Assembly: GCA_021819585.1 (NCBI GenBank)
Contig: JAKAQS010000006.1
Coordinates: 1-41,589 of the forward strand
Direction of reading: 5' to 3'
DNA: 41,589 nt
From: Acidobacteriota bacterium
GTDB lineage: Bacteria > Acidobacteriota > Terriglobia > Terriglobales > Acidobacteriaceae
This document shows, piece after piece, positions 2,329 to 20,798 of the stretch. Under the pieces are notes generated by a model. The model saw only the letters and a program-made list of their open reading frames with translations, did no database searches and had not been told where the DNA came from. Every line of letters begins with the position of its first letter. Within the stretch, counting starts at the first letter, position 1. The position numbers and the translations under genes are program-made.

Positions 2329-3333
2329 TTAGCGAACGCCTCCAGCCGTGGCCGAGGCCGCGGTCGATCGCGCAGCCGTGGCCAGCTTGCCGCCGGCCAT
2401 GCGCGCAGCCAGACGCATGGCGGCCTTCATATTGGTGGCATCCGCTAGGTTGCGTCCGGCGATGTCGAAGGCGGTGCCGTGATCCACGGAGGTGCGCAGG
2501 ATAGGCGTTCCCAGCGAGACATTCACCGTGTCCGCAAAGTCGATCAGCTTCATGGGAATGTGTCCCTGGTCGTGGTACATGGCCACGATCAGATCGAACT
2601 CTCCGCGCAGGCCGCGCACAAAGATGGTGTCCGGAGGCCAGGGGCCGGAGCACTCCATCCCCAGGGACCGCGCCTGCGCGATGGCTGGAGCGATGATCTC
2701 ATGGTCCTGCGCGCCAAACAGGCCGTGCTCTCCCGCATGAGGGTTCAGCCCGCAAACGCCGATGCGCGGCGGCCTCTGCAACATCAGTGTGAGAGCCTCA
2801 TGGCCAAGCTCCAGAGTGCGGAGAATGCGCGAAGTCTCCAGCCGGCAGGCCTGCTCCAGCGGGATATGCGTGCTGACATGCACGGTGGAAAGCTTCTCGG
2901 AGACCAGCAGCATCCGCGACTCGGTGGCTCCGGTCAGATCTGCAATGTACTCCGTATGGCCGGTAAAGGCCCGCCCGGAGAGCGTAACCGCTTCCTTGTT
3001 GAGAGGCGCTGTCACCATCGCATGCGCTTCACCGCTCATGCACATGGCTACAGCGCGGCGGACGTAGCCTATGGCCGCCAGGCCATATTCTGCGCGCAGT
3101 TGGCCAAACGCAATGGGATGATCCTCGGCCAGATCGCCGGTGGCGACAATCGTGCAAGGCAAGCCGGCAGGGTCAATATCCGCGATACGGCCGGCGGCGT
3201 TGAGGGCCGCGTGGTCAGCGATGAGAGACCATCGGGCGAGCTGGGCCAGTTCCGGGTCGGTCAGAGCCTTGAGCGCAACCTCGGCGCCAACGCCGGCCGG
3301 GTCTCCGATACTGATCGCAATGTGAGGCTTCAT
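2329..3333 (-). CDS. pdxA2: PdxA2-type 4-phospho-D-threonate 3-dehydrogenase
   Basis: 334 residues of the PdxA fold: GDPAGVGAE near residue 10, GHTEYIADL near 125, THIPLE with His156, NPHAGEHG with His199, YHDQGHIP with His254 and the C-terminal SVDHGTAFDIAG. The three histidines match the divalent-metal ligands of PdxA. In vitamin B6 synthesis PdxA oxidises 4-hydroxythreonine-4-phosphate; PdxA2 paralogs next to a DUF1537 kinase instead oxidise and decarboxylate 4-phospho-threonate to dihydroxyacetone phosphate (D-threonate pathway, Zhang et al. 2016). Here the kinase is directly upstream with a 4-nt ATGA overlap at 3330-3333, which supports PdxA2 over biosynthetic PdxA. The C-terminus is Ala/Thr-rich and low in complexity. 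D-erythronate-type substrates remain possible. Confidence 0.85.
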   Translation of the reverse strand: MKPHIAISIGDPAGVGAEVALKALTDPELAQLARWSLIADHAALNAAGRIADIDPAGLPCTIVATGDLAEDHPIAFGQLRAEYGLAAIGYVRRAVAMCMSGEAHAMVTAPLNKEAVTLSGRAFTGHTEYIADLTGATESRMLLVSEKLSTVHVSTHIPLEQACRLETSRILRTLELGHEALTLMLQRPPRIGVCGLNPHAGEHGLFGAQDHEIIAPAIAQARSLGMECSGPWPPDTIFVRGLRGEFDLIVAMYHDQGHIPMKLIDFADTVNVSLGTPILRTSVDHGTAFDIAGRNLADATNMKAAMRLAARMAGGKLATAARSTAASATAGGVR

Positions 3334-7375: not shown

Positions 7376-9013
7376 TTACGATGCACCGTTGCCTGCCTGG
7401 ACGCTTGCGCTCCGCTTGGCTGTCCTGGAGCGGATGCGAAAAACGTACGCCGGCTCCCGCGGCCTCACCTGCGGCAGCTCGATGTGCAGGCCATCGCTCT
7501 CTTGCTTCCAGACCAGATGGGCTGCCGCACCGAGCAAGGCGACGCTGGCGACGGGGCCGGGCAGATAGGGCGTCCCGCGAAAGAGCGATTGTAGGCGCAG
7601 CTCTCCGTTGGCCGGCCAGCCCAGGGCGATGGCGTAGAGGCTGCCGGAGCGCGTGGTGTAACGAATGTCGGCGGCGGTGAACTGTTGGCGGTCCGTGTTC
7701 ATTGCCGAGGAGGCGTCCAGATGCGGACCCTCTCCGAAGACGAACCAGGGACGGGTGCCGTAGATCGCCTCACCGTTCAGGCGCAGCCACGCGCCGATCT
7801 GCAGCAAAACCTTTTGCACCGGCTCCGGAATTGTTCCGTCGGCGCGCGGGCCTACGTTGAGCAACAGATTGCCGTTCTTGCTGACGACATCAACGAGTTC
7901 GTCGATCAGGGAGCCGGCATCGCGATATTCATCGTTGGTGGCGTATCCCCAGGAGTGAATGCTCACCGAAGTATCCGTCTCCCAGGGCAGCAGCCGGGTG
8001 GTCTGCATCTTGCCTCGCTCAATATCCAACACGGCCGTATGGGCGGGCATGGCCTGCTCCTTGTAGGTGAGCACGACGGGTTGGCCGCGGCGCGCGGCCT
8101 GATCGTAGTAATACGCTGCAAACCTCTTCAGATAGGGGCGGAAGGCGGGCTGGCCGATCCACCAGTCGAAGTAGAAGAAGTCGGGGTGGTATTTTTCGAC
8201 GAGTTCGCCGCTGCGCGCCAGCCAATCGTCCAGAAAGGCCGAGTCCGGCGGGAGCCACTGCTCCAGATGATTGGGATTGGGCTCCTTCTTGCTGACCGAA
8301 CCCGGCAAGGCCATGGGCTGAGCGGGGCCGTAGAGCGAGGCGTAGCGGAGGCTGCGAACGTCAGAGTCAAAGCTCATGCCCCCGTCATACCACCACCAGT
8401 GCTCGGCGCGGTGCGAGGAGACGCCGAAGTGCAAGCCGCGGGCTCGCGTGGCGGCGGCGAGTTCGGCCACCACATCGCGATGGGGGCCCATACGGGCTGC
8501 GTTCCAGGGCGTGATGCTGGAGTCGTACATGGCAAAGCCGTCGCAGTGCTCGGCCACGGGAACGATGTAGCGCGCGCCGGAGCGAACGAAGAGATCCACC
8601 CACTGCGCAGCATCGAAGTGCTCTCCGCGGAACATGGGAATGAAGTCCTTGTATCCAAACTTCGACTGCGGACCGTAGGTTGCAATCTGGTGCTGGAAGG
8701 CAGGTGTTCCGGGCTGATACATGTTGCGGGAGTACCACTCGTTGCCAAAGGCGGGAACCGAGTAGACGCCCCAGTGGATGAAGACGCCGAATTTGGCGTC
8801 TCGAAACCACTCCGGCACGCGGTAGGCGCCCAGCGAGTTCCAGTCCGAACGGAAAGGGCCGGCCTGCGACCCCGCCTGGACGTGTTGCAACTCCCGCTGG
8901 ACGGCTGGGCCGGATTGGGCGCGAACGGAGGAGGGGAGGACAAAGGCCGAGAGAGCCGCGGCCAAGGGCAACACCAGGCGCGCCACGCCCACGGGTGAAG
9001 AAGCAACTTCCAT
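7376..9013 (-). CDS. GH29 alpha-L-fucosidase, exported
   Basis: 545 residues. Signal peptide (residues 1-32, cut after VRAQ), then the GH29 barrel opening WFRDAKFGVFIHWGVYSVPAF (split signature near 69-89), NEWYSRNMY near 91, AEHCDGFAMYDS near 154, SSHRAEHWW near 199 and DFFYFDWWIG, where Asp283 is the expected nucleophile. A C-terminal beta-domain follows NLLLNVGPRADG. GH29 enzymes release terminal alpha-L-fucose by a retaining mechanism, here probably in the periplasm. AAGG sits about 7 nt before the ATG. Fucose occurs in xyloglucan, arabinogalactan proteins and RG-II, so this alone does not fix the polymer. The divergent gene to the right begins about 200 bases away, leaving room for a shared control region. 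Confidence 0.92.
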   Translation of the reverse strand: MEVASSPVGVARLVLPLAAALSAFVLPSSVRAQSGPAVQRELQHVQAGSQAGPFRSDWNSLGAYRVPEWFRDAKFGVFIHWGVYSVPAFGNEWYSRNMYQPGTPAFQHQIATYGPQSKFGYKDFIPMFRGEHFDAAQWVDLFVRSGARYIVPVAEHCDGFAMYDSSITPWNAARMGPHRDVVAELAAATRARGLHFGVSSHRAEHWWWYDGGMSFDSDVRSLRYASLYGPAQPMALPGSVSKKEPNPNHLEQWLPPDSAFLDDWLARSGELVEKYHPDFFYFDWWIGQPAFRPYLKRFAAYYYDQAARRGQPVVLTYKEQAMPAHTAVLDIERGKMQTTRLLPWETDTSVSIHSWGYATNDEYRDAGSLIDELVDVVSKNGNLLLNVGPRADGTIPEPVQKVLLQIGAWLRLNGEAIYGTRPWFVFGEGPHLDASSAMNTDRQQFTAADIRYTTRSGSLYAIALGWPANGELRLQSLFRGTPYLPGPVASVALLGAAAHLVWKQESDGLHIELPQVRPREPAYVFRIRSRTAKRSASVQAGNGAS

Positions 9014-9212: not shown

Positions 9213-9920
9213 ATGCGCGCCTTGCCGATCGATTCTGTCCCTACGCTAGCATTACTTCACACCAGCCCCTCGGTGGCACCTGTCTTCAGCGGGCTCTGCC
9301 AGAAGCATCTGCCCGAGTTCAGGATCTTTCACATGGCGGACGAGAGCCTGATTCAGGAGACGATGCGCGCCGGAAGGTTGCGTAAATCGACGGCGCGGCG
9401 GGTGGTGAACCACGTTGGATCGGCAGTAGAGGCCGGAGCCGATGCGGTGCTGGTCACCTGTTCTTCCATCGGACAGGCCACACGCATCGCGCAGCAGCTC
9501 TTTGATTTGCCCATCTTGCGCGTCGATGAGGCGATGGCCGAAGCCGCGGTGCGCCAAGCCTGCGTTATTGGAGTAGCGGCCACGGTGCGCACCACGCTGG
9601 ACCCCACGCTGGCTCTGCTCCGCGAGAAGGCGCAAGAAGCGGGCAGAGAGGTGAAGCTGGTAGAGTGTCTGAGTGAAGCCGCCTTTCCGGCCATTCTTGC
9701 CGGAGACACGGCGAAACACGACGCTCTGGTGTCCAAGGCATTGCTCGAAGAGCTTCAGGGAGTGGATCTGATCGTGCTGGCTCAAGCCTCCATGGCGCGC
9801 GTGGTGGATGGTCTCCCGGCGGGAGCATTGCGGGTTCCGGTTCTCACCAGCCCGGAGCTGGCAGTGCTGCGCGCAAGGCAGGCGCTGCAGTCGCTGGGGC
9901 AGGCAGAGGCCGGCGATTGA
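9213..9920 (+). CDS. Asp/Glu/hydantoin racemase-superfamily enzyme
   Basis: 235 residues from ATG at 9213. Features: TLALLHTSPSVAPVF at the N-terminus, AVLVTCSSIGQATR (first catalytic-type Cys followed by Ser/Ser), ACVIGVAATVRTTLDPT and LIVLAQASMARVVDGL, where the second Cys of true racemases appears replaced by Ala-Ser. The superfamily uses one or two cysteines for proton transfer in racemisation, isomerisation or decarboxylation. Loss of the second Cys argues against a classical amino-acid racemase. The frame is open back to 9012 (two bases into the GH29 start), but those residues are Arg/Pro-rich and unlike the family; 9138 is another possible ATG. Coupled to the MFS gene by a TTGA overlap, suggesting it acts on the imported compound. 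Substrate unknown. Confidence 0.7.
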   Translation: MRALPIDSVPTLALLHTSPSVAPVFSGLCQKHLPEFRIFHMADESLIQETMRAGRLRKSTARRVVNHVGSAVEAGADAVLVTCSSIGQATRIAQQLFDLPILRVDEAMAEAAVRQACVIGVAATVRTTLDPTLALLREKAQEAGREVKLVECLSEAAFPAILAGDTAKHDALVSKALLEELQGVDLIVLAQASMARVVDGLPAGALRVPVLTSPELAVLRARQALQSLGQAEAGD

Positions 9921-11197
9921 AGCAGCGGGGCTGGAGGCAGAGGCACTGGGTTCTGACGCTCCTGGGGCTGCTTTCTGTCCTCACCTTTCTTGACCGCCTT
10001 GCGATTGCAGTAGCCGCTCCAGGCATTGAGCGAGAGCTGCATATTGCTCCACAGGCCTGGGGTTGGATCCTGAGCGCTTACGTGCTGGCAAACGGATTGT
10101 TCGAGATGCCCTCCGGAGCGATGGGCGACCGGCATGGCCAGCGCGGCGAGTTGACCCGGATCGTCACCTGGTGGTCAGGCTTTACCGCGCTGACGGGTTG
10201 GTGCCGTGGATTCTGGCAACTGCTGAGCGTGCGGTTTCTGTTTGGCATGGGCGCGGCTGGGGCCTATCCCAACGCCGCCGGAGTGATCGCGCGCTGGTTC
10301 CCTCCGCGAGAGCGGGCTCGCAGCCAGGGCGTGGTATGGGCAGCGAGCCGACTGGGCGGCGTGCTGGCGCCGCTGCTGATTGTCCCGGTGGAGAGGTACT
10401 GGGGCTGGCGGGCGGTGTTCAAGCTGCTCGGCGCGATGGGCGTAGCGTGGGCAGCGGTGTGGTACACGCGCTTTCGCAACCATCCCGCAGAGCACCCCGG
10501 GATCCATGCGGAAGAACTGGAGGAGATTGGAGAGTCCCAGACGCATGGCGCACACTCGATTCCCTGGCGGCGGCTACTGGAGTCGCGGCAGCTTTGGCTG
10601 CTGGCGCCGGCCTACGGCTGCTACGGATGTGGAAGCTGGTTCTACTTCTCATGGTTTCCGGTGTGGATGGTGCATACCGCCCATCTTTCATTGAACGGCG
10701 TTCTGCTCGCGTCCTTGCCCTTCGCCATGGGGGTTGTGGGCAACCTTGCGGGCGGTGAGCTGGCCGATTGGCTGGTGCTGCGCTGGGGCGCGCGGTCCGC
10801 TCTGCGCGCGATTCCAGCAGTTTGCCTCACCGTGACCGCAGCCCTGCTGTGCGCCATGGCGATCCTTCACGGCAAAGCCGCCACCGTAGTTCTCTCCAGC
10901 CTGGGCTTCGGCATGATGGATCTGATGCTGCCCTCCGCATGGGCCATGTGCATGGCGATCGGAAGGCAGTGGAGCGGAACCGCGACCGGCTTGATGAATA
11001 CCGCCGGACAGGCCGGCGGGTTCCTGGCCACGGTGGGCTTTGGCTACGTGATTCAAGCCACCGGCAGCTACAACGTGCCGCTGTTTCTCATCGCCGCCAT
11101 GGTGGCCATCGCGGCTCTGCTCTTCTCGCGCGTGGATGCCACCCAGGCAGTGGGAGACGACCCAGGTTTGCACCAGTCCGGGCAGGCAACCTGTTGA
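9917..11197 (+). CDS. MFS transporter, ACS/hexuronate-like organic anion importer
   Basis: 426 residues with 12 predicted membrane helices. The loop between helices 2 and 3 carries the MFS signature GAMGDRHGQRGELTR, and the first helix block LLGLLSVLTFLDRLAIAVAAPGIERE is typical of the anion:cation symporter (ACS) group that imports galactonate, glucarate and hexuronates. It starts at TTG 9917, overlapping the TGA of the racemase-like gene by 4 nt, with AGAGG about 8 nt upstream. The two genes form a small plus-strand operon set between two minus-strand blocks. Uptake of an uronate or aldonate released from pectin is plausible but inferred. It ends 18 bases before the convergent kinase gene; a 5-bp hairpin GCCGA-A-TCGGC fills that gap. 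Confidence 0.85.
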   Translation: MKQRGWRQRHWVLTLLGLLSVLTFLDRLAIAVAAPGIERELHIAPQAWGWILSAYVLANGLFEMPSGAMGDRHGQRGELTRIVTWWSGFTALTGWCRGFWQLLSVRFLFGMGAAGAYPNAAGVIARWFPPRERARSQGVVWAASRLGGVLAPLLIVPVERYWGWRAVFKLLGAMGVAWAAVWYTRFRNHPAEHPGIHAEELEEIGESQTHGAHSIPWRRLLESRQLWLLAPAYGCYGCGSWFYFSWFPVWMVHTAHLSLNGVLLASLPFAMGVVGNLAGGELADWLVLRWGARSALRAIPAVCLTVTAALLCAMAILHGKAATVVLSSLGFGMMDLMLPSAWAMCMAIGRQWSGTATGLMNTAGQAGGFLATVGFGYVIQATGSYNVPLFLIAAMVAIAALLFSRVDATQAVGDDPGLHQSGQATC

Positions 11198-11215: not shown

Positions 11216-12508
11216 TTATCTTCCGTCACGTACACGAACCAGGAAGTCCTCTGGCCCGATCTGGCCGCCCTTGAGCACCACCTCCAGCCCATCCAGCGCG
11301 GAACCGGGGACGTGGAGGCGGCATAGCGGAGCACCCGGCGTGAGCGGCGCGGCAAAGGTAAGTGCTTTCGCCCCCAGACGGCGCACAGCGTGCGAGGCGG
11401 TGTCTCCTCCGGCGATCACTAGCCTGCGCACCCCGGAGCGCAGCAGCAGCTCACGTAGCAGCTCGCCCAGGGCGTGGCTTTGCTCCACGCCGTAGGCGCC
11501 GGCTCTGTCCGGTATGCCGAGCGCGGTGTAGAGCACAACGCTGCCGCCGCGCGCCAGCTCCTTCAGCGCCTTCTCCGCTTGTGGGGCCATGGTTGTTTCA
11601 GGACGCACACACCAGGCGCGGAAGCCCTTCCGCTGCGCTGCCTGAATCTGCCCCGCAGTGACCGGCGAACAGCTTCCGCTCAACACCAGCAGGTGGTCGA
11701 CTGCCGGCGGCGAGGCGAGATTTTCAGCGGAGCGGATGCCTTCCAGGCTCTGCCACAGCCGCAGCAGACCGTAAGTGAGCCCCGAAGAGCCAACGGCAAA
11801 GACCGGTTGAGCGGAGGCTTCCGCCCAGAGCAGCGCAGCCGACTTCCGGAGCGTCTCCTCATCCAGGCCGTCAAAGACGATGGCGCGCGCTCCCGCCTCG
11901 CGCACAGCTCGCAGCCGCTCCTCGCCGCCGCCGGAGCGCAGCGCAGGCAGATCGACGCTGCCTATCGGCAGGCTGGTCTGCCGGGCCAGATGCAGGCGCA
12001 GATCAGCCTCATCCATCGGCGTGACCGGATGACGGCTCATCGTAGGATGGCGGTCGATACGGTAGATTCCATCCCGCGCCTGAGCAAAGAGGTTACTGAA
12101 GAGAACGAAGCGGCCCAGATGCGGAGCCGCAGCCAGGATGGGAATCCAGGCTGACGCAAAAGCCTGCGCGCCCAGTTCCATGGCGCGTCCGATGCTGCCC
12201 GTGTGGGGCGCGCTGTCAAAGGTGGAGCAGACCTTGTAGTGATTGACCGGCGCGCCCAGAGATCGCATGGCGGCGAAGACCTTCGGCAGGTGCTCGTCCA
12301 TCCACTGCGGCGAGCGGCTGCGGCTCTCCCCGGCGATGCCGATGGCGCGGCAGTGGGCAAAGCCGGCCAACGCCGGCTCATCCGGCGGATCGGTGAACAG
12401 CACCGCCGGAACGTCATGCACCGCCAGCGCCTCCAGCACATCGGTTGAGCCGGTGAAGTCGTCACCGTACCATGTGTAAAGAAGCGCTTCAGAGGCAGAT
12501 CGGCTCAC
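11216..12508 (-). CDS. DUF1537 sugar-acid kinase partnered with the RuBisCO-like protein (OiaK-like)
   Basis: 430 residues from GTG at 12508, which overlaps the RLP stop (GTGA) with GGAGG 10 nt upstream; the frame is open further but only through the RLP gene. Motifs: WYGDDFTGSTDVLEAL (DDFTG at 16-20), VCSTFDSAPHTGSIG near 95, VLSGSCSPVTAGQ near 270 and the C-terminal nucleotide motif VIAGGDTASHAVRRLGA. Kinases of this type next to RLPs phosphorylate 3-oxo-isoapionate in the oxidative D-apiose pathway (OiaK, Carter et al. 2018). It differs strongly from the DUF1537 protein at 3330-4469, so the two probably use different acids. Substrate by analogy only: a 3-oxo or branched sugar acid, with the RLP acting on the phosphorylated product. 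Confidence 0.82.
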   Translation of the reverse strand: MSRSASEALLYTWYGDDFTGSTDVLEALAVHDVPAVLFTDPPDEPALAGFAHCRAIGIAGESRSRSPQWMDEHLPKVFAAMRSLGAPVNHYKVCSTFDSAPHTGSIGRAMELGAQAFASAWIPILAAAPHLGRFVLFSNLFAQARDGIYRIDRHPTMSRHPVTPMDEADLRLHLARQTSLPIGSVDLPALRSGGGEERLRAVREAGARAIVFDGLDEETLRKSAALLWAEASAQPVFAVGSSGLTYGLLRLWQSLEGIRSAENLASPPAVDHLLVLSGSCSPVTAGQIQAAQRKGFRAWCVRPETTMAPQAEKALKELARGGSVVLYTALGIPDRAGAYGVEQSHALGELLRELLLRSGVRRLVIAGGDTASHAVRRLGAKALTFAAPLTPGAPLCRLHVPGSALDGLEVVLKGGQIGPEDFLVRVRDGR

Positions 12509-13791
12509 GAGGCGAAAGCCTCCAGTGCCGCTCGCAACTCCGCGTGTTCGACTGCGTACTGCTGGAGCGAGACGCCGGCCGCGGCTGCCTCCCATGCCTG
12601 GCGCAGGCTGCGGACCCCAGCCGCGGATCCCTGTGGATGGGCCAGAATTCCACCTCCGCAGGCGTAGATGAGATCCACGCTTCCGGAAGAGCCGTCGCCG
12701 AGGGCGCGAAAGGTTTCGGGAACCTGACCCACCGACTGGCCAGAGGAGAAGACCGGCATCACTTCACAGCCGGCGTGTGGGGCCTGGAACATGGGGGTAA
12801 GACACTCGCGCGCCGAGGCGATGACGCTCGCGTCCTCCTCGCAGAACTTGTTGCGGAGACCGTTGACGTGGACGTGGTCGATGCCGGCCAGACGCCAGAA
12901 CTTCTGATAAGCGATGAAGCTCATCCCGGTGGCGTGCGAGCGGCTGAACATGCCCCAGCCGTTACGGTGGCCGTGTATGGCAAGCTGCGCGTGACGGCGC
13001 AGCGCGGTGAGAGCCGGCAGGCCGATGCTGTTCAGGCTCACCATCACGCACGTGCCGCCTTCGGCCAGCACCAGATCGTGGCGCTGGAGCATCTGGTCAA
13101 TCTCGCCGGTGATATTGGCCGCATACATGGGCATCTTGCCGGTCTTTTGCGCAACCTGCCTCAGTGCGCGCAACACAGCGGGCACACGCTGGTCAAAGCG
13201 ACAGTGGGGGCCGTCCGCCTGCAGCTCATCATCCTTGAGGAAGTCGACGCCGGCCTCGGCGAGCATCTTAGCCTGCGCCGCCGTCTGCTTCGGCGTCATG
13301 CCCACGCTGGGTTTCAGAATGGCGCCGATCACCGGCCTGCCGTACACACCGGTAAGGCGCCGGGTTCCAGCCACGCCGAACTGCGGCCCCGGATATCTCT
13401 CCAGAAATGCCGGGGGCAGCGTGACGTCCAGCAGTTTGAGCCCCGAAAACGGCTTGAGTTCGAAGAGATTGCCGGCCACCGTGGCGAGCAGATTGGGCAG
13501 CGACGGCCCCATGTTCTCCAGCGGCCAGAAGAGCGTGACCTCAGCGGTGCGGCGCGTGATGGGGCCGGAGTGCGCCTTGGGAACGCAAGAGCCGGAAAGC
13601 GACGGGCTCTCCACCAAGCCCGTTTCGACAATCTGCTCAACCCGCGCTGCATAGCGCTCGCGGAGTTCGTCGGTTTCACCCGGTACGCGCACGAAAGTTC
13701 CGGTAGACTGCTCTCCGGCCATGATGGCCGCGGCATCCTCCAGCGGATAGGCTGTCTCGATCCAATATCGGGCATACACGCGCTGCTTCAT
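12505..13791 (-). CDS. RuBisCO-like protein (RLP), candidate 3-oxo sugar-acid phosphate decarboxylase
   Basis: 428 residues from ATG at 13791 (GGAGA about 5 nt upstream). RuBisCO large-subunit fold: N-domain with ENMGPSLPNLLATVAGN near 92, then the barrel. By hand alignment Lys160 in AILKP matches RuBisCO K175; the carbamylated Lys and metal acids are kept in FLKDDE (Lys186, Asp188, Glu189); HR at 275-276 and DHVH at 305-308 match the substrate histidines. RuBisCO K177 is Ser162, and loop 6 reads SSGQSVGQ at 349-356 with no K334, so CO2 fixation is not expected. RLPs beside DUF1537 kinases decarboxylate 3-oxo-isoapionate 4-phosphate (OiaC) or act as transcarboxylase/hydrolase (OiaX). The GTGA overlap with such a kinase supports that class of reaction. 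Confidence 0.88.
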   Translation of the reverse strand: MKQRVYARYWIETAYPLEDAAAIMAGEQSTGTFVRVPGETDELRERYAARVEQIVETGLVESPSLSGSCVPKAHSGPITRRTAEVTLFWPLENMGPSLPNLLATVAGNLFELKPFSGLKLLDVTLPPAFLERYPGPQFGVAGTRRLTGVYGRPVIGAILKPSVGMTPKQTAAQAKMLAEAGVDFLKDDELQADGPHCRFDQRVPAVLRALRQVAQKTGKMPMYAANITGEIDQMLQRHDLVLAEGGTCVMVSLNSIGLPALTALRRHAQLAIHGHRNGWGMFSRSHATGMSFIAYQKFWRLAGIDHVHVNGLRNKFCEEDASVIASARECLTPMFQAPHAGCEVMPVFSSGQSVGQVPETFRALGDGSSGSVDLIYACGGGILAHPQGSAAGVRSLRQAWEAAAAGVSLQQYAVEHAELRAALEAFAS

Positions 13792-13834
13792 ACTTCTCCG
13801 ATCCATTCTTTGCTCTGCGTTGCAGGCAGTCCGC

Positions 13835-15640
13835 TCAGGCCCGATCAAAGTACATGGCGTAGGTCTCGTCGCGAACCTGAAAGAAGGGCGCAAAGGTGCG
13901 CGACCCTGCCGCGAGAAGCGTGGGGGCGTGAGCCACCGGCTGCAGTTTGCCCATGTCCAGCGGCGAAGAGCCACGGGCAGGAGCAGCTTTGGGGTTGCGC
14001 TCCACGTAGACCAGGGGTCCGCGCAGCACAGCCGCGGTGCGCGGATGCAGATCGTCGATCGGCTCAGTGCGAAGGGACAAGGGCCACTCCAGCTCGACCA
14101 CATCGCCATCCGTCCAGGTGCGGGCAAGCGTCGCGAATCCGCGCCGCATGTTGGACGGGACCACGTTGCCGTTCACCCTTACCCGCGGAGCGCTCTGCGA
14201 CCAGGACGGAGTGCGCAACTGGAGGGTGAAGGCGACCGGCCGACCGCAGGCCACCGTGAGCTGAACCGCGCCTTGCAGCGGATAGAGCGTCTTCTGCTCC
14301 AGCATCACCGAAGCGCCTCCCTGCTGCCAGTACACCCGCGAGGGGGCGTAGAGGATGACGGCGATGCCGCCGGCGGAGCGAAAGTAAATATCCTTCACGT
14401 AATCGGCGACGCCCTGCACCAGCGTGCCGGAGCAGCAAGGCCATCTCTGCGGGTAGTATCCTTTGCGAGCCTGAGCGTTGTAGCTGGAGTAGTAGAAGTA
14501 ATCTCCCTGCCCATCCGGATCCTTGGCGGCCAGAAGACCGTTGTAGGCTACCCGCTCCAGGCCATCGCCATATTGAGCTTCGCCCGTGGCGCAGAGCAGA
14601 TAGCGCGCCAGCTTGATGGCGGCATAGCTCCCGCAAGGAGTCTCAAAGTGGTCGTGAGTGGAGAAGAGGCTGGCGTAGAGCAGCCCCTTGCCGGGTTCGA
14701 CGAACAGCTCATCCGGTCCCCATCCACCGGTGGCATACTGCTGACCGTCGCGCAGGAGATTCCAGGCGTTGCGCATGGTGCGCAGATACTTCTCTTCGCC
14801 CAACACAAGGCGCGCCTTGCCGGCCGAGCTGAGCGCGATGACATGGCTGTACGCATGACGCCCAGGCAGAACATCCATCCCTTGGGCGAGCGGATCAAAG
14901 AACTCCCGGTCCAGCAGATAGGCCTTGGCACGCTGCAGAAGAGCCTGATCCCCGGTGAGATCATGGGCCGTAAACAGGTTCTCGGGAAGCACATAGGTCT
15001 CATCGTAGGGGGGATCTCTTCTGCCGATGCGATCGCGGCCGCGCACGGGGAGATAAGGCAGCGCCCCGGAAAAGACCCGAGGAATCAGCGCGCGCGCCGG
15101 CTCCAGGCCGCTCAGGCGAAAGGCGTCGATGAGCCCGATCAGATGCTTGTCCAGGATGTAGCAAGGCCAGAGATTCGCCGCGTTGGGTGCGGCGAAGACC
15201 CGGTTGCCGTTGCCCAGCGTGAGCGCAAAACCCTCCAGCAGCGCCCACACCTTGGCATGACAGGCCGCATCGCCGGTGGTGCGGCCGATGCGCGCCAGGC
15301 CGGAGACATACTGGCCAAGCGCGTGGCCGGGCACAAAGCCATTGCGTCCATACCATCCCCCCATAGGGGCTCCCGGAGCGGGCAAACCCGCGCCTTCTCG
15401 GTAGACCCGAAGCAGGCGATCATTCTCCAGGCCGAGATAGGCGGCATGGATCCGGTCGTACTGCTGTTTGAGCGGACCGCCGGTTAGCTCCACCGCGCCA
15501 TAGTCGAACTCCTCAAGCTCCTGGGAGACCGCGGGGGCAGGCGCGCTGTTCAGCGGCGCGGGCGAGCAAACCCCAGATCCTTGCGCGAGGGCAGCAGCCG
15601 CGCCGGCCAGAAACTCTCTTCGTGTGACGGGGCGCTGCAT
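13835..15640 (-). CDS. GH127/DUF1680-type beta-L-arabinofuranosidase-like hydrolase, Tat-exported
   Basis: 601 residues from ATG at 15640. MQRPVTRREFLAGAAAALAQ is a twin-arginine signal. The body is the DUF1680 (alpha/alpha)6 fold, with DHFETPCGSY (Glu333, Cys336) and RWPCCSGTL (Cys402-Cys403). In the founding GH127 enzyme HypBA1 a Glu and three Cys bind zinc, and one Cys is the nucleophile; here Glu and Cys are spaced ExxC rather than ExC, a small difference within the wider family. GH127 and relatives release beta-L-arabinofuranose, and one member acts in RG-II breakdown. It sits between the regulator (56-base gap) and the RLP (43-base gap), which ties this glycosidase to the RLP pathway. 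Exact sugar specificity is uncertain. Confidence 0.85.
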   Translation of the reverse strand: MQRPVTRREFLAGAAAALAQGSGVCSPAPLNSAPAPAVSQELEEFDYGAVELTGGPLKQQYDRIHAAYLGLENDRLLRVYREGAGLPAPGAPMGGWYGRNGFVPGHALGQYVSGLARIGRTTGDAACHAKVWALLEGFALTLGNGNRVFAAPNAANLWPCYILDKHLIGLIDAFRLSGLEPARALIPRVFSGALPYLPVRGRDRIGRRDPPYDETYVLPENLFTAHDLTGDQALLQRAKAYLLDREFFDPLAQGMDVLPGRHAYSHVIALSSAGKARLVLGEEKYLRTMRNAWNLLRDGQQYATGGWGPDELFVEPGKGLLYASLFSTHDHFETPCGSYAAIKLARYLLCATGEAQYGDGLERVAYNGLLAAKDPDGQGDYFYYSSYNAQARKGYYPQRWPCCSGTLVQGVADYVKDIYFRSAGGIAVILYAPSRVYWQQGGASVMLEQKTLYPLQGAVQLTVACGRPVAFTLQLRTPSWSQSAPRVRVNGNVVPSNMRRGFATLARTWTDGDVVELEWPLSLRTEPIDDLHPRTAAVLRGPLVYVERNPKAAPARGSSPLDMGKLQPVAHAPTLLAAGSRTFAPFFQVRDETYAMYFDRA

Positions 15641-15696
15641 TGGCGTCTTCTGTTCCTCCCTCTCAGAGTAGAAGCGGGAACATCGTCCGGAAAGCC

Positions 15697-16950
15697 TCAA
15701 GCATGGGCGGCACGCTGATTCCGGGATGCGGAATCAACTCTACCCAGCAGCGAACTCCTCCTGATTCCGGGACCGTCGGCTTCGTCCAGGGGATAGATGA
15801 GATCGACGTTGCGCGGGGTAAGAAGCTGATGCTTGACGAAGACGGTGGCGGGAACCGGCTTGTGCTGGAGGATGTTCAAGGCCAGCGCCATGAGCTCATC
15901 GCCGTAGCGTTCGGGAAAATAGGCCACGGACCCCACCAGCCGAGTGCCGGGGCGGCGCAGCTCGGTGCGCGCTCCGCGCAGCGCATTTTGACCCATGATC
16001 GCGCAGAGATGCGCCGCACCCGCTTCTTCAAAGGCGCGCAACGCGGCCAGCGCGCAAATATCATTCACCGCGCCAACCAGGGTCCTGCGCGTACCGCGGC
16101 GGCGCAGGAACTTGCGCAGCACCTCCAGCACTTGCTCAAACGTGCCCCGGCCGTTCAAGCGAACCAGAGGGGTGTTGACGATCCCCGGAAGTTCGCCTCG
16201 CAAGCCATCCACCAGACCCGCGCTGCGCAGCTCCAGCAACGAACCTGCGATGGGCAGATCCAGCAGCACCAGTTGATCCACCTGGCCCTCCCAGTGATCG
16301 CGCGTCCAGCGGCCCAGAGCGCGTCCTCCCATCATTCCGGCCTTGTAGTTGTCCGCTCCAAAGTAGGTTGCTCCGGGGTGCGGAACTTCAATGGCGATCA
16401 CGGGCGTATCAGCGGCAAGAAACTTGGAGGCGATGACCGGAGCCACGCGCTCGTAGGTCTGAAACTCCAGCACCAGATCCACCTGTTCCCGGATCATGGC
16501 GTCGGCGTTGCGCAGGGCCTCGCGGGCGCTGTAGCGGTTATTGAAGGTCACCAACTGGACGTGCTCGCGAGCCGCGGCCGTCACCACGCCGCGCGTCACC
16601 TCGCGCGCAAACTCGGTATCGCCCTGCGTGGCAAAGCCGATGCGAAACGGCCGCGTGGAGACCGGGCCGAAGCTGTTGCGGTACACTCCCGCGCTGACCC
16701 GTTCGATCAGCCCTCCGTGAATCAGCGTCCGCAGCAGACGGAAGCAGGTGGTCTTGGGCAGATGCGTGCGCTCCATCACCTCGGTCAACGGCAGTTCCTC
16801 GCCGAGATGCCGAAAGGCCTTGAGCACCTCGCAGGCCCGCAGCACGGTCTGCGATTCGTTGCGGTCCCCTTTTCGCTCCCCGCCGCGCGTGGCCTGCTCC
16901 TTGCCAGGCGGATCGATAAGGTCAAAGTCGTCTTGTGAATGTCTGGCCAT
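15697..16950 (-). CDS. Chimeric regulator: IclR-type winged HTH fused to a type-1 periplasmic-binding sugar sensor
   Basis: 417 residues from ATG at 16950 (GGGAG 6 nt upstream). Residues 34-94 are an IclR N-terminal winged helix (TVLRACEVLKAF, LTEVMERTHLPKTTCFRLLR, GGLIER). From about residue 102 the protein changes to a type-1 periplasmic-binding fold (PFRIGFATQGDTEFAREVTRG, IREQVDLVLEFQ, DTPVIAIEVPHPGATYFGADN), as in LacI-type effector domains, instead of the usual IclR_C domain. No signal peptide, so it is cytosolic and should bind a sugar. Encoded inside the GH43/GH78/GH127/RLP/kinase group and preceded by a promoter with palindromes, it probably autoregulates and controls GH127-RLP-kinase. 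Residues 1-33 are charged and unlike either domain. Confidence 0.85.
   Translation of the reverse strand: MARHSQDDFDLIDPPGKEQATRGGERKGDRNESQTVLRACEVLKAFRHLGEELPLTEVMERTHLPKTTCFRLLRTLIHGGLIERVSAGVYRNSFGPVSTRPFRIGFATQGDTEFAREVTRGVVTAAAREHVQLVTFNNRYSAREALRNADAMIREQVDLVLEFQTYERVAPVIASKFLAADTPVIAIEVPHPGATYFGADNYKAGMMGGRALGRWTRDHWEGQVDQLVLLDLPIAGSLLELRSAGLVDGLRGELPGIVNTPLVRLNGRGTFEQVLEVLRKFLRRRGTRRTLVGAVNDICALAALRAFEEAGAAHLCAIMGQNALRGARTELRRPGTRLVGSVAYFPERYGDELMALALNILQHKPVPATVFVKHQLLTPRNVDLIYPLDEADGPGIRRSSLLGRVDSASRNQRAAHA
15715..15772. repeat. Repeated CTGATTCCGGGA element with an inverted repeat
   Basis: CTGATTCCGGGA occurs at 15715-15726 and again at 15761-15772. The first copy is part of a perfect inverted repeat, TGATTCC (15716-15722) and GGAATCA (15730-15736). 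Both lie in the 3' end of the regulator gene, upstream of the GH127 start, and could be operator half-sites or chance within coding sequence. Confidence 0.35.
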
Positions 16951-17066: not shown

Positions 17067-19595
17067 CTACTGGGCGCGGAGACTATAGCTGCCTGGAGAG
17101 TCCAGTGGAATGGCCAGCCGGGCGCCACCCTCCGCCGGTTGACCCGTGCGCGGTACGCCGTTGACCAGAACCTGCGTGGCCCCGGGGGGCACCGGAAAGA
17201 GGACCGTGGCATGCACTCCTGCGGGCAGAACGACGGTTGCGATCAGGCCATCCTGCCGGCGCAGGTTAACCTTGAGCAAACCGTGAGGGGTGGGCTCCTG
17301 GCCTCGAGCCCACTGCAGGTCCAGCAGGTCGGGGCGAAGGATGGTCCGGCTGAACCCGGCAGCCGCCGGCTGGATGCCGAGCACCTGCTCCATGAGCCAG
17401 TAGGCCGGCCCGGTCGACCATCCGTGCGCCAGGCTGGTGAAGTAGCCGGTGCGGCCGTCCGCCTGCAGATCGGAGTGAGGATCGCTCTTGGGCCAGGAAG
17501 GATCGTAGGCCTCCCAGAAGCTGGTGGCGCCCTCGTCGATCATGCCGCCCCAGTACTGGCGGATCCAGCCCAGCGCGGCCTCGCGGCGATTCATTCTGGC
17601 CATCGCGTCCAGCACGTAGGCTCCATAGTAGGGCGTGATGAGATTGGGCCGGAAGGTCGGCTGCCCAACCTGCGCCAGGACGCTGTTCCAGATGGAGTTG
17701 AACTGGCTGGGATCGGCAACGCCGGAGAGCACCGCCATGGCGTTGGTCTGCCAGCGGGGGCCGAAGTCCCCCTGGGCCTGCGACCAGAGGCTGGCCTGCA
17801 AACTCTGTTTCAACTGTGCGGCCCGCGTCTGGAAGTGCTGCGCGTTGGCCGTGTCGCCGAGCTGCTGCAACAGATCGGCCCCGGCCAGATAAGCGCGCAC
17901 ATACTCCAGGCTGGTGGCTCGGCGCACCTCCGCAGTATCGCCGTAGAGGCCGGGCGCCCAGTCCACGAACTGCCACGCGCCGGTGCGATTCAGAAACAGG
18001 TTCTCGGCGTTGAACTCCCGGTCCATGAACTGGAGCAACTGCACGAGATGCAGATGCTCCCGACGTAGATAGGCCAGATCGCCGGTGTGCTGAATGTACG
18101 CCTCCAGCGCGGTCGGCCAGAAGGCAGAGTAGCCGGGGATGCCGTTGAGATGCTGCCGGATCGGCGCGGGGCCGATGAGACGGGAGAGCGTATCTTTGAT
18201 GAGAAAGCGATCGAAGAAGATACTGTCGCTGACCCGTCCGCTCACATCAACGTCCCCCATCCAGCGCCCTCGGTCACGCTTGGGCGAGTCCCAGAGATCG
18301 TCCTGCATGCCGAGATGCACCGTGTAGGCTGCCGTCTCCCAGATGCGATTCAGCAGAGGGTCAGAGCAGGCAAAGGATCCCTGATAGTGGACGGGGAAGT
18401 AGATGTCCTCCAGACGAATGGCCTTGAACTTGAGCGTCGGGGCGCCGGAGAGAAAGCGAATCCGCACGTAACGAAAAGCGGACTTGGGCCCATGGCCGGT
18501 CTGGTTCGCAGTCAATCGAAGCACGTTTTCACCCAGATAGGGGTCGTGATCCAGCTCGCCCCGCGACTCACCGTACTTGATGGAGACCGTAACGGGTGAA
18601 TCCATGGCCGAGACAAGCTGGATGCGGCCGGCGACCTCACGGCCAAAGTCCAGCGTGAGCGCGGGGGCATACTCCTGGCCCGGCTTGGCGCTCCTGAGAT
18701 GCACGGTGAACACCTGTGCCGAAGCGCCGTCCGGTTGGGTGAGCGTCTCGATGTTCTCAAAGCTGCTGCGCCCCATCGTCAGATCCTCCACCTTGCCGGC
18801 GGGAAGGTACAAATGCGCCAGGAAGGGCGAAGCGCCCTGATAGCCGGGCCAATCGTAGAGTCCGGCGTCGGCGTTCCACTGGTACAGATCGATGGAACCT
18901 TCGATGGGGCTCAGGGGCATTACCGCCGGCCACGCGGAGTCATCGAAGGCGGTCTGCTCCCACCCTGCGGCGGCGCGCAGCGTACCCTTCCACCGCGGGC
19001 CGGAGACCAGGATGGGCGGGGCGTCCACGCCGTCCGGCGCTGGTATCAGCTTGGCCAGGAGCACCTCTCCGAAGATCTGCTGCATGGCCAGTGCGCTGTT
19101 GACAAAGCCGGGAACGCCGCGGCCGCGCACCACCTGCATGGCAAGCACGTTGCGTCCAGGCCGGAGCAGCCGCGCCACATTCACAGGGAAGACGTGCATA
19201 TCGAGCGGATTGAGAAGGTCGCTGGAGATCCGCTCGGCGAGCACACCGTTGACGTAGAGCGTGACCGAACGAGGACCGGCCAGATAGAGCGTGGCCCGCG
19301 CCGGCGCAGCATCGAGATGGAAGGTGACGCGGAAGTAGTGCTCAGCCGTATTGTGGGTCAGGCCAGGCGAGCGGTAGCGTTGCGGAACGCGAGCGCCCAC
19401 CATGGAGTCTTCCCGCGTCCAGATGTACTGCTCCGTGAGCGGCGTAAGCAGGCCGGAGAACATCCGAGGCTGGGCGACGGAGCGCGTAGGATCCAGTTGT
19501 CCGGCTGGAATCGCCGCTGACCGATGCTGGGCCGCGAGAGCGCCGGCGAAGAGAAGGCATAGAACCGGCAGACGTCCGGCGAGATGCTGCTGCAT
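17067..19595 (-). CDS. GH78-like alpha-L-rhamnosidase family protein, exported
   Basis: 842 residues. Signal peptide (1-22, ending GALAAQ). N-terminal jelly-roll modules include a carbohydrate-binding type stretch (YFRVTFHLDAAPARATLYLAG near 87-106), then a Bac_rhamnosid-type domain and an (alpha/alpha)6 barrel from about 410. The conserved catalytic segment reads DSPKRDRGRWMGD at 436-448: Asp436 matches the first acid of the GH78 motif, while the position of the general-acid Glu (RE in the second GH78 protein here) is Asp441. Still likely a glycosidase for rhamnose or a related deoxy sugar, but specificity may differ. ATG at 19595 has GGAG 7 nt upstream. It lies 99 bases after the GH43-like gene; the regulator promoter follows its stop. 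Confidence 0.82.
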   Translation of the reverse strand: MQQHLAGRLPVLCLLFAGALAAQHRSAAIPAGQLDPTRSVAQPRMFSGLLTPLTEQYIWTREDSMVGARVPQRYRSPGLTHNTAEHYFRVTFHLDAAPARATLYLAGPRSVTLYVNGVLAERISSDLLNPLDMHVFPVNVARLLRPGRNVLAMQVVRGRGVPGFVNSALAMQQIFGEVLLAKLIPAPDGVDAPPILVSGPRWKGTLRAAAGWEQTAFDDSAWPAVMPLSPIEGSIDLYQWNADAGLYDWPGYQGASPFLAHLYLPAGKVEDLTMGRSSFENIETLTQPDGASAQVFTVHLRSAKPGQEYAPALTLDFGREVAGRIQLVSAMDSPVTVSIKYGESRGELDHDPYLGENVLRLTANQTGHGPKSAFRYVRIRFLSGAPTLKFKAIRLEDIYFPVHYQGSFACSDPLLNRIWETAAYTVHLGMQDDLWDSPKRDRGRWMGDVDVSGRVSDSIFFDRFLIKDTLSRLIGPAPIRQHLNGIPGYSAFWPTALEAYIQHTGDLAYLRREHLHLVQLLQFMDREFNAENLFLNRTGAWQFVDWAPGLYGDTAEVRRATSLEYVRAYLAGADLLQQLGDTANAQHFQTRAAQLKQSLQASLWSQAQGDFGPRWQTNAMAVLSGVADPSQFNSIWNSVLAQVGQPTFRPNLITPYYGAYVLDAMARMNRREAALGWIRQYWGGMIDEGATSFWEAYDPSWPKSDPHSDLQADGRTGYFTSLAHGWSTGPAYWLMEQVLGIQPAAAGFSRTILRPDLLDLQWARGQEPTPHGLLKVNLRRQDGLIATVVLPAGVHATVLFPVPPGATQVLVNGVPRTGQPAEGGARLAIPLDSPGSYSLRAQ

Positions 19596-19694: not shown

Positions 19695-20798
19695 TCAGGT
19701 CCAGGGTTGAGAGCGGGCTACGGAGATCCCGCGTACATCGTGCGGATACTTGCCGGAGACTGCGGTGTAGAAGTGGTAGAAGTCGCCCTTCCACGCGATC
19801 ACCGATGGCTTGTGGGCAAAATCATCGTCGACCGAGCCGGGAGGGCCCGCGTTCACCAGGATCGTGCTGGTCTTTTGCGGATGGTCCGGGCTGTTGCCCA
19901 TGGCCAGCAGGTCGCGCGCCTTGCGGTCGCGGCTGCTCAGGCCGTAGTAGAAGATCGCCCACTGGTGACGCCGGCGCACGACGCAGGGGTCACTGGCGAA
20001 GCGGTCATCCCAGCTTCCCGGAGGTCCGTTGCGGATGATGGGATTCAGCGGCGAACGTGTCCAGTGCTTCAGGTCGCGAGAGGTAGCCAGTCCAATCTGT
20101 TCTCTCCAGCCGCCACCCTCACGCTTGGGCAGATTGCGCGTCTTGGCGTTGTAGAAGAGATAAAACGTCCCATGCTCCTCAACCAGGCAGGGTTTGTAGA
20201 GCCCTCCCTGCTCCCAGGCCGTCGCCTGCGGATCATCGGGACGCAGACACGGCGGCTCCAGTTCCCAGTACTGCAAATCGTCGCTCCAGCAGAGGCCGAT
20301 CACCGCGGGACCGGCCTCCATGCCGGGGTTTGGATAGGCGTGCCAGGCGCCCAGGTAGCGGCCGTGAACTTTTTTGAGCCGCGCGGGGCTGAGCGCCTCG
20401 CTTTCTCGTACGATCCACATCATGGCGACGTTGTAGCGGAAGATGGGCGAGTCCGGCTTGCGAGGCAAGATGCAGCCCATGCGGGTCCAGTCCCGCAGAT
20501 TGGAGGAGCGCGCCATTCCGGTCTGATAGCCGATGCCATCAAAGCCGATGTAGGTGAGGCGAAACTCCCCTTCGTGACGGAAGACGAAGGGACCGTCCAC
20601 AAACTTCTCGTCGAAGTCTCCTGTCACGCCGCTGCCACCCAGCACCAGGCGGTTAAGCTTGTATGGCGTGAGCAACGCATGCGGCGCGGGGGGAGCGGCG
20701 ATCGCAGGGTCGGTCATGCCCGCGAGGACGCTGAGTTTGGCTGGGCCGGCGCTACAGCAGGCTGCGCCGGCCGCGTAGAGAAATGTACGTCGATTCAC
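19695..20798 (-). CDS. GH43/invertase-superfamily five-bladed propeller hydrolase, Tat-exported
   Basis: 367 residues from GTG at 20798, with GGGAG 5 nt upstream. The N-terminus MNRRTFLYAAGAACCSAG is a twin-arginine signal. The rest shows the repeating blades of the arabinanase/levansucrase/invertase clan: KFVDGPFVFRHEGEFRLTY (blade 1, with the Asp expected as base), SSNLRDWTRMG, WSDDLQYWELE, KPCLVEEHGTFYLFYNAKT, SRDLKHWTRSP, FASDPCVVRRRHQWAIFYYG and HKPSVIAWKGDFYHFYTAV. Proteins of this kind are usually annotated GH43-like and act on arabinosyl, xylosyl or galactosyl chains. Assignment to one GH family needs a profile search. First gene of the minus block that leads to the RLP and kinase. 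Confidence 0.75.
   Translation of the reverse strand: MNRRTFLYAAGAACCSAGPAKLSVLAGMTDPAIAAPPAPHALLTPYKLNRLVLGGSGVTGDFDEKFVDGPFVFRHEGEFRLTYIGFDGIGYQTGMARSSNLRDWTRMGCILPRKPDSPIFRYNVAMMWIVRESEALSPARLKKVHGRYLGAWHAYPNPGMEAGPAVIGLCWSDDLQYWELEPPCLRPDDPQATAWEQGGLYKPCLVEEHGTFYLFYNAKTRNLPKREGGGWREQIGLATSRDLKHWTRSPLNPIIRNGPPGSWDDRFASDPCVVRRRHQWAIFYYGLSSRDRKARDLLAMGNSPDHPQKTSTILVNAGPPGSVDDDFAHKPSVIAWKGDFYHFYTAVSGKYPHDVRGISVARSQPWT

Follow-up and report, generated by a model that had tools for sequence, protein, structure and literature searches.

A RuBisCO-like protein and DUF1537 kinase module of a soil acidobacterium and its possible role in aceric acid catabolism

The closest described counterpart of the module analysed here is the oxidative D-apiose pathway, in which the kinase OiaK is said to work with a RuBisCO-like protein (RLP), either the decarboxylase OiaX or the transcarboxylase/hydrolase OiaC, and in which PF16896 is the family of the oxidoisomerase of apiose loci (ApnO). 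A related route, the 3-oxo-tetronate pathway, runs through OtnK and OtnC together with OtnI. The oxidative pathway with OiaK and an RLP is attributed to Carter et al. (2018), as cited in PMC6302742, and background was also drawn from PMC10850190 and PMC12282258. Plant pectin contains the rare sugar acid aceric acid, and its consumption is the most likely use of the gene set described below. Its catabolism is not treated in the titles or abstract beginnings among the matches listed in our literature search, and its fate after RG-II breakdown looks like a gap in knowledge.

Gene content and family placement

The window, i.e., the whole stretch of 41,589 nucleotides that was analysed, belongs to a soil bacterium, and the module was read from its genes [Table 1]. 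As the preliminary description had stated, the kinase, RLP, GH127, and regulator genes all run in one direction, and the overlap of the RLP stop with the kinase start (GTGA, 12505-12508) was read in the DNA. The MFS and AGR genes, which that description had passed over, face the kinase gene convergently, and the MFS start overlaps the AGR stop through the shared letters TTGA. The grouping exceeds chance because the RLP-kinase pair recurs in related loci and GH127 often adjoins it; in those loci, MFS and AGR are steadier partners of the pair than GH127. The dehydrogenase, lactonase, and oxidoisomerase, earlier reported missing from the window, were likewise absent from Pfam scans of 26 frames lying beyond position 768.

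Table 1. Genes of the module and of its immediate context in the window.
Feature	Position	Strand	Start	Basis
DUF1537 acid-sugar kinase, OiaK-like	11216..12508	-	GTG	Pfam PF07005 + PF17042; NCBIfam OiaK 439 bits
RuBisCO-like protein (RLP)	12505..13791	-	ATG	Pfam PF02788 + PF00016; NCBIfam OiaX 440 bits
GH127/GH146-like glycosidase	13835..15640	-	ATG	Pfam PF07944 + PF20736; Tat-like N-terminus
Regulator, IclR helix-turn-helix fused to periplasmic-binding-protein domain	15697..16950	-	ATG	HTH_IclR + Peripla_BP_4
MFS transporter	9917..11197	+	TTG	Pfam/NCBIfam; nearest D-galactonate transporter subfamily, below cut-off
AGR, Asp/Glu-racemase-family protein	about 9213..9920	+		Pfam PF01177; alignment; AlphaFold2; Foldseek
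GH29-type alpha-L-fucosidase (context gene)	7376..9013	-		Pfam PF01120
Alpha-L-rhamnosidase-type (Bac_rhamnosid6H) protein (context gene)	17067..19595	-		Pfam PF17389/PF17390
GH137-like glycosidase (context gene)	19695..20798	-		NCBIfam NF049877; PDB 5mt2/5muj

The RLP scored 439.9 bits with the OiaX model NF042437 (equivalog cut-off 700), against 129 and 174 bits with the MtnW models TIGR03332 (cut-off 513.6) and NF007095 (cut-off 409), which rules out a methionine-salvage identity and upholds the kinship of the RLP/DUF1537 module with OiaX/OiaK. Membership of OiaX itself is ruled out by the same score and by the tree, where the window RLP falls in a 22-row clade (99/96) apart from the 4-row OiaX clade. 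This tree excludes the short row L028 and contains no RLP from L065 or L067, and its row L002 is labelled with MFS and AGR, yet the L002 contig ends at the RLP. The window RLP retains K175, K201, D203, E204, H294, and K334 as well as E60, N123, and H327 (positions that we take to follow RuBisCO numbering), whereas all 4 rows of the OiaX clade carry E60D, N123G, and H327Q. Because it stands outside that clade and retains these three residues, the RLP looks, from its sequence, more like the transcarboxylase/hydrolase (OiaC) type. The earlier choice of "OiaC or OiaX" is thereby narrowed: OiaX drops out, and the last step to an OiaC type is one that we infer. The listed active-site residues are identical between AGR-type and PF16896-type RLPs. 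AGR-linked RLPs occupy three tree positions (the 22-row clade, L050, and the partial L020 row), a placement that suggests repeated recruitment.

The kinase, with the two-domain DUF1537 architecture, matched the OiaK model NF042436 best, with 439.4 bits over the full length (equivalog cut-off 700) versus 169 bits for OtnK. OiaK scores of 6 AGR-type kinases (412-460) overlap those of 5 PF16896-type kinases (416-575), and the PF16896-type kinases of L014-L016 are placed among AGR-type rows in the kinase tree; neither score nor tree splits the two types cleanly, and both were rejected as markers of substrate type.

AGR (AlphaFold2 model pLDDT 92.7) has a single invariant cysteine, Cys75, and carries Gln183 at the second cysteine position, as we assign it from glutamate racemase motifs, with Gln there in 13/13 aligned sequences. 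The two-cysteine racemase mechanism is therefore not expected of AGR, and a role as amino-acid racemase is unsupported. Relatives at 46-48% to the L012 protein occur in rhizobial amino-acid-like contexts. The L073 locus combines an OtnK-type kinase (383 bits against a cut-off of 350), an OtnC-like decarboxylase (220 against 250), and an MFS gene with an AGR placed after the first two, presumably in the slot where OtnI would act. We propose that AGR is a carbonyl-shift isomerase; to our knowledge, no aldose-ketose isomerase of this fold has been described. The MFS transporter, conserved beside the RLP in related loci, is nearest to a sugar-acid subfamily (D-galactonate; 208 bits, cut-off 395).

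Distribution of the gene set and its link to pectin

RLP, kinase, and AGR genes occur as clusters in Acidobacteriota, joined there by MFS and frequently by GH127, as well as in Pseudomonadota (L010, L011, L012) and Bacteroidota (L050). In Croceibacterium (L029/L049), a single plasmid bears all three, separated by about 31 kb, and at the Chloroflexota locus L020, AGR and RLP form one operon on a contig that breaks off within the RLP or shortly behind it, before any kinase. Both RLP and AGR were found in 8 of 396 Acidobacteriota genomes, RLP only in 2 (both with PF16896), AGR only in 1 (39% identity), and neither in 385 at the E-values used (Fisher p=3e-14, which ignores relatedness and is descriptive only). 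Among 295 genomes surveyed in the Planctobacterium order, only the starting genome was recovered.

PF16896 had no match in the host assembly (93% complete), in a search that was positive in 9 of the 29 genomes tested. Of the 21 genomes whose RLP belongs to the 22-row clade, 19 lack it; of the 7 RLP-kinase genomes outside that clade in which no AGR was seen beside the RLP, 6 have it. The preliminary description had the freed sugar oxidised first, a view left unsupported by the missing PF16896, by an MFS transporter nearest to a sugar-acid subfamily though below its cut-off, and by a racemase fold in the extra conserved enzyme. Several genomes are mixed. G411 has an RLP-kinase pair with neither PF16896 nor a linked AGR, and G687 has the pair with no AGR match. 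In G405 and G406, AGR and PF16896 share a contig, at distances to the RLP of about 16 kb in the former and 7 kb in the latter. G414 holds the L020 operon plus a second RLP beside a kinase and PF16896 on contig C63, with an AGR (39%) about 11 kb away, and the PF16896-type genomes G407-G410 have AGR homologues (39-52%) on other contigs.

Conceivably, D-apiose or D-apionate is degraded here as in the oxidative pathway, with an unrelated substitute for the oxidoisomerase, apionate imported by the MFS transporter, and a side role for AGR. The proximity of RLP and kinase to OiaX and OiaK, the shared contigs of G405, G406, and G414 (C63), and one apiosidase-family protein on another contig of the host genome (PF13204, 74.5 bits) are in keeping with this alternative. 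It is nevertheless unlikely given the distribution of PF16896 in the clade, the aceric-hydrolase equivalog that partners L020, and the fold of AGR, as a racemase fold lacking a cofactor is not expected to catalyse a redox step. No scanned gene of the window was recognised as Gfo/Idh/MocA, which also speaks against it, although genes of this family do occur in the wider cluster of Croceibacterium and Rufibacter.

The GH127 protein, with conserved Cys and Glu columns and an N-terminal RREFLAG that we take to be a Tat-like motif, matched the aceric acid hydrolase model NF049879 partially (84.8 bits, cut-off 950); the L020 GH127, beside AGR and RLP, exceeded the cut-off over its full length (1009.7 bits). 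Rufibacter has a GH127 that is 53% identical to the L020 enzyme and is encoded on the plasmid that also bears its RLP, kinase, and AGR genes. Foldseek placed GH146 arabinofuranosidases nearest to the model of the window GH127 (mean pLDDT 69.4, medium confidence) and BT1003 (5mqo) 12th, and the structure was rejected as proof of substrate. PDB 6ex6 corresponds to BT3674 and 5mqo to BT1003. GH127 adjoins the RLP-kinase pair in 6 of the 10 named Acidobacteriota loci of the clade (L002-L009, L018, L019) and in 8/8 family-f1 genomes surveyed, where L008 and L037 are probably one genome. Of the 21 genomes in the RLP clade, 20 have a window-type GH127 (21 being nearer 20, as G273 and G402 have identical GH127 coordinates and are probably one genome) versus 0 of 6 others tested (Fisher p=2e-5, again ignoring relatedness and descriptive only). 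Among 301 Chloroflexota genomes, 2 exceeded the NF049879 cut-off, and the RLP-AGR module accompanied the hydrolase in one of them; in G575, where a GH127 passes this cut-off, the surrounding 20 kb contained neither RLP nor AGR, and this genome is not among the surveyed RLP genomes. The GH137-like gene scored 95 bits with NF049877 (cut-off 1800) and matched PDB 5mt2/5muj (E=7e-20), presumably the RG-II enzyme BT0996. The earlier link to pectin, probably RG-II, is supported.

The GH127 could instead be a common beta-L-arabinofuranosidase whose place in the cluster reflects pectin use alone, with RLP, kinase, AGR, and MFS handling an unrelated imported sugar acid. Its nearest structures would fit, as would its absence next to the RLP in L004, L005, L006, and L019; however, each of these genomes encodes a copy with 63-64% identity elsewhere, on a separate contig, and in Chloroflexota a different GH127 subfamily, the aceric-hydrolase equivalog, accompanies AGR and RLP, which makes such a coincidence improbable.

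A possible route for aceric acid

We give nearly even weight to the reading that AGR, MFS, GH127, RLP, kinase, and regulator form a functional unit, a variant of the RLP/DUF1537 module without the oxidation step, with aceric acid as its most likely substrate; an aceric-acid-derived acid had been a side suggestion of the preliminary description and gains support. Secreted glycosidases would trim a side chain of pectin, probably chain B of RG-II, and GH127 or a neighbour would release a branched sugar with an acid group. This sugar, most likely aceric acid (3-C-carboxy-5-deoxy-L-xylose), would be imported by the MFS transporter. AGR would then move the carbonyl from C1 to C2 and yield a branched 3-oxo acid homologous to 3-oxo-isoapionate; the sole carbonyl-shift isomer of this branched acid is, by our reasoning, a 3-C-carboxy-aldose. 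The kinase would phosphorylate the terminal hydroxyl, and the RLP would split the product, most likely in a transcarboxylase/hydrolase reaction, to 3-phosphoglycerate and lactate (predicted L), products that would therefore need no additional special enzyme. Gene content, conservation, family placement, catalytic residues, and the lack of a PF16896 match in the assembly were observed directly, whereas we infer the substrate as well as the reaction of AGR and the final products; the full proposal of aceric acid catabolism, in which a racemase-fold, single-cysteine aldose-ketose isomerase feeds an RLP that splits its substrate without net carbon loss, is more tentative than the functional unit itself.

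Counted for this pathway were the AGR-RLP-kinase linkage, the three tree positions of AGR-linked RLPs, the distributions of PF16896 and GH127, the L020 hydrolase, the two separate RLP loci of G414, the loss of the second AGR cysteine, L073, and the argument on the carbonyl-shift isomer. Counted against it were the 85 bits of the window GH127 and the nearness of its model to GH146, the mixed genomes (G405, G406, the C63 contig of G414, G407-G410), G411, G687, and G575, the OiaK score overlap and kinase tree, the rhizobial AGR contexts, the Gfo/Idh/MocA neighbours, the want of a described aldose-ketose isomerase with this fold, and the identical active-site residues of the two types.

A downstream role for AGR, in which it would epimerise or isomerise a ketose phosphate after simple OiaX-type decarboxylation in place of EryH/EryI, would agree with the TIM-family and RpiB-family genes beside oiaX at L055 (none noted beside AGR-type loci) but is improbable. 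Such genes are also missing at the OiaX loci L061 and L064 (within 5 kb) and at annotated RLP-kinase-PF16896 loci without AGR (L030-L032, L034, L058). At L073, the partners of AGR are OtnK and an OtnC-like decarboxylase, and DHAP, the product expected of the latter, needs no such step. The RLP, moreover, retains E60/N123/H327, unlike the OiaX clade. The absence of EryH/EryI-like genes was also dropped as a mark of the transcarboxylase type on account of L061 and L064.

The three-enzyme set of AGR, kinase, and RLP makes the fate of aceric acid directly testable. If the aceric acid reading is true, RuBisCO-like protein chemistry would extend to a second natural sugar acid, the Asp/Glu-racemase fold would gain a new reaction type, and neighbour genes would help annotators separate apiose-type from other RLP loci.

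Comparison with described systems

With the oxidative D-apiose pathway, the module shares adjacent, overlapping RLP and DUF1537 kinase genes of the same families with retained catalytic residues; it differs in its host genome without PF16896, in having no recognised apiose dehydrogenase or sugar ABC transporter, in carrying AGR, MFS, and GH127, and in RLP and kinase scores below the equivalog cut-offs. Like the 3-oxo-tetronate pathway, it would have a DUF1537 kinase phosphorylate a 3-oxo acid before this is decarboxylated, and L073 places AGR beside an OtnK-type kinase; unlike that pathway, the window has an RLP in place of OtnC and an OiaK-like kinase rather than OtnK. AGR shares the fold and the first catalytic cysteine of Asp/Glu/hydantoin racemases (PF01177) but has Gln for the second. 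Finally, the degradation of RG-II chain B by Bacteroides thetaiotaomicron, with the aceric acid hydrolase BT1003 and a GH137 enzyme, is mirrored in the window by GH127-fold and GH137-like enzymes and by GH78-, GH29-, and GH95-type genes, whereas the window GH127 belongs to another subfamily, and we propose here that the freed acid is metabolised inside the cell.

Gene content around the RLP-kinase pair

The window (contig C303) belongs to an assembly of 3.88 Mb in 347 contigs (93% complete), and the nearest named relatives of the contig are Granulicella-type Acidobacteriota MAGs. The arrangement given in the preliminary description, with kinase, RuBisCO-like protein (RLP), GH127 and regulator genes in one direction, was borne out: all four lie on the minus strand, and GTGA, read in the DNA, is shared by the RLP stop and the kinase start. 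Left unnamed there was a gene pair tail to tail with the kinase, encoding an Asp/Glu-racemase-family protein (AGR) and an MFS transporter. Alpha-L-rhamnosidase, GH29 and GH95 genes are also carried in the window. The fused architecture of the regulator seems unusual, and its best copies in Acidobacteriota relatives are 67-93% identical. An isomerase 61% identical to that of the fucose-isomerase-type set adjoins a PF16896-RLP-kinase set in another locus (L065).

Positions and strands of genes and gene sets in the window
Feature	Positions	Strand	Remarks
Second acid-sugar set	769-4469	minus	sodium:solute symporter, PdxA-type dehydrogenase, DUF1537 kinase (nearest model D-threonate kinase, 141 bits, below cut-off)
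AGR, Asp/Glu-racemase-family	9213 (probable start)-9920	plus	
MFS transporter	9917-11197	plus	nearest to D-galactonate transporter subfamily, below its cut-off
Kinase	11216-12508	minus	
RLP	12505-13791	minus	
GH127	13835-15640	minus	
Regulator	15697-16950	minus	IclR-type helix-turn-helix joined to periplasmic-binding-protein domain
GH137-like gene	19695-20798		resembles solved chains, which we take to be the BT0996 domain
Fucose-isomerase-type set	23957-31056	minus	L-fucose-isomerase-C-type protein, RhaT/ureide-permease-like transporter, FGGY kinase, split transketolase, Sugar-bind (DeoR/SorC-type) regulator; may form an isomerase-kinase-transketolase pathway for a sugar, possibly apiose

Placement and active site of the RLP and kinase

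Against the OiaK and OiaX models (cut-off 700 each), the kinase scored 439 bits and the RLP 440 bits, the latter also reaching 252 bits for form III RuBisCO; these scores place both broadly within the OiaK/OiaX group, and neither is an equivalog. Methionine salvage, which the preliminary description had set against a sugar-acid role, is disfavoured by the 129 and 174 bits that the RLP obtained with two methionine-salvage enolase models. Among solved structures, 3nwr comes closest to the RLP; it is itself a RuBisCO-like protein, with no function named for it. In the proposed comparison with other RLP clades, a maximum-likelihood tree of 54 rows (46 of the RLP group), the RLP resolved into a 22-row clade of its own (99/96) and not within the annotated OiaX proteins, which form a clade apart. 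This clade comprises Acidobacteriota loci with MFS and AGR, four Pseudomonadota loci (L010, L011, L012, L029) and L002, the contig of which stops at the RLP; its surroundings are mainly RLPs adjoining a PF16896 gene.

K175, K201, D203, E204, H294, R295 and K334 are kept in 46/46 RLP-group rows. E60, N123 and H327 are kept in all 22 rows of the clade and replaced by D, G and Q, respectively, in 4/4 OiaX-clade rows, and the L045 RLP has L and G at positions 60 and 123. E60 and N123 serve carboxylation chemistry in RuBisCO, and we infer that the RLP resembles the transcarboxylase/hydrolase kind more than the OiaX decarboxylase. The same three residues are kept in RLPs linked to PF16896 and therefore do not tell the two substrate types apart; likewise, PF16896-type kinases (L014-L016) are interspersed with AGR-type rows in the kinase tree, with overlapping OiaK scores for the two types. 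It is highly likely that kinase and RLP act on a branched 3-oxo acid.

An Asp/Glu-racemase-family partner

AGR and MFS genes stand opposite the RLP-kinase pair in 9 of the clade's 10 named Acidobacteriota loci; at the remaining one, L002, the contig stops short of that side. Protein queries in 396 Acidobacteriota genomes (E <= 1e-80 for RLP, <= 1e-25 for AGR) found both in 8, RLP only in 2, AGR only in 1 (39% identity) and neither in 385, and AGR, MFS, GH127, RLP and kinase occur together in all 8 RLP-holding genomes of one family, f1. Planctobacterium marinum (L012) has RLP-kinase-AGR as a three-gene run, and a Rufibacter tibetensis (Bacteroidota) plasmid (L050) has the same three, after which come a bile-acid:sodium-symporter-type gene and a pectinesterase. 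On a Croceibacterium plasmid, GH127-RLP-kinase and AGR-MFS lie ~31 kb apart, and the Chloroflexota locus L020 reads LacI, GH127, AGR, three transport genes, RLP, contig end. The AGR-RLP link probably arose more than once, since the RLPs of L050 and L020 (the latter partial) are placed outside the 22-row clade. It is very probable that AGR, MFS, RLP and kinase make up one functional unit.

PF16896 was taken as the apionate oxidoisomerase (ApnO) family from rhizobial apiose loci. Among 29 genomes scanned, it was absent from 19 of the 21 with an RLP of the clade, the exceptions (G405, G406) carrying it on the RLP contig, ~16 and ~7 kb from the RLP. Of seven further RLP-kinase genomes in which no AGR was noted next to the RLP, six carry it (G235, G104, G407-G410) and one, G411, does not; it is also present in G414, which holds both kinds. 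The separation of the two types is not clean: G407-G410 have AGR homologues (39-52%), though not on the RLP contig, and on G414 contig C63 (L074) an AGR (39%), adjoining a solute-binding protein and two permease-like frames, lies ~11 kb from an RLP-kinase-PF16896 set. No AGR match was found for G687 (Chloroflexota), which has an RLP-kinase contig. G273 and G402 appear to be one genome.

CaiB-type CoA-transferase genes and a solute-binding protein lie close to the module in some loci (L009, L010, L041; L078), and on the Rufibacter plasmid two CaiB-type genes are accompanied by MaoC and Gfo/Idh/MocA genes; these arrangements hint that the pectin loci also encode a CoA-dependent route for sugar acids. 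Elsewhere (L035, L056, L057, L059, L063), RLP-kinase pairs have SDR, TRAP or VOC partners and no directly adjoining PF16896-type gene (L056 has one ~5 kb off); the cassette may thus serve several sugar acids.

The AGR is predicted to adopt the Asp/Glu-racemase fold (AlphaFold2 mean pLDDT 92.7; Foldseek), and 13/13 aligned AGR sequences keep Cys75 and have Gln at the second racemase cysteine position. Such a one-cysteine site is ill-suited to two-base racemisation; a one-base carbonyl shift would fit, and we lean slightly towards AGR as an upstream isomerase. Some other contexts agree with this role. In L073 (G305), a LacD-like aldolase, MFS, OtnC-like decarboxylase (220 bits, cut-off 250), OtnK-type kinase (383 bits, above the cut-off of 350) and AGR form a run that may encode a variant of the 3-oxo-tetronate pathway, AGR replacing OtnI; L075 (G400) has MFS, AGR and a split transketolase consecutively; and in Deinococcus (L053) AGR adjoins a class II aldolase. 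The rhizobial relatives (46-48%), among oxidoreductase and ABC genes, are at odds with it. The gene after the L075 transketolase resembles the LarA family by eye.

A candidate route from aceric acid

The apiose-pathway RLP substrate would be a branched 3-oxo acid with no hydrogen on C2, and a carbonyl shift would therefore lead only to the aldehyde, a 3-C-carboxy-aldose. Aceric acid is, to our knowledge, the natural plant sugar of this kind, which AGR could isomerise directly to the 3-oxo acid. This would explain why dehydrogenase, lactonase and oxidoisomerase are unneeded, and likewise the anion-carrying transporter families beside AGR (galactonate-type MFS, bile-acid-symporter type), the ABC-type set of L020 being the exception. 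Provided that the RLP works as a transcarboxylase/hydrolase, it and the kinase would then yield 3-phosphoglycerate and lactate. The earlier interpretation is partly supported: the broad OiaX/OiaK membership stands, and the prior oxidation of a sugar would fall away.

With the aceric acid hydrolase model (cut-off 950), the L020 GH127 reaches 1009.7 bits, and the Rufibacter plasmid has a GH127 53% identical to that enzyme. In G414, the genome of L020, another contig carries a further RLP together with a kinase and a PF16896 gene, as expected if the two RLPs serve two substrates. GH127 of the window's type occurs in 20/21 clade genomes and 0/6 others tested; the remaining clade genome, G406, carries a different GH127 (779 bits against the same model) ~20 kb from the RLP. 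In the window itself the link is matched by the GH137-like gene, GH137 being named among RG-II enzymes in PMC10850190, and by the alpha-L-rhamnosidase, GH29 and GH95 genes. Counting against the aceric acid link, the window's GH127 reaches 85 bits with that model, and its predicted structure is closest to GH146 arabinofuranosidases. G575 (Chloroflexota; aceric hydrolase, 961 bits) has no RLP or AGR within the 20 kb examined. The L040 GH127 frame (G281:C56:2762-4549) is broken by TAG and so reads as two open frames.

We give the full explanation, in which aceric acid is the main substrate, a little under an even chance. If true, aceric acid gains a catabolic pathway and the Asp/Glu-racemase fold an added reaction; among the matches listed, no title or abstract opening in the open-licence literature mentions either. 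In essence, the module is a variant of the known RLP/DUF1537 kind of pathway.
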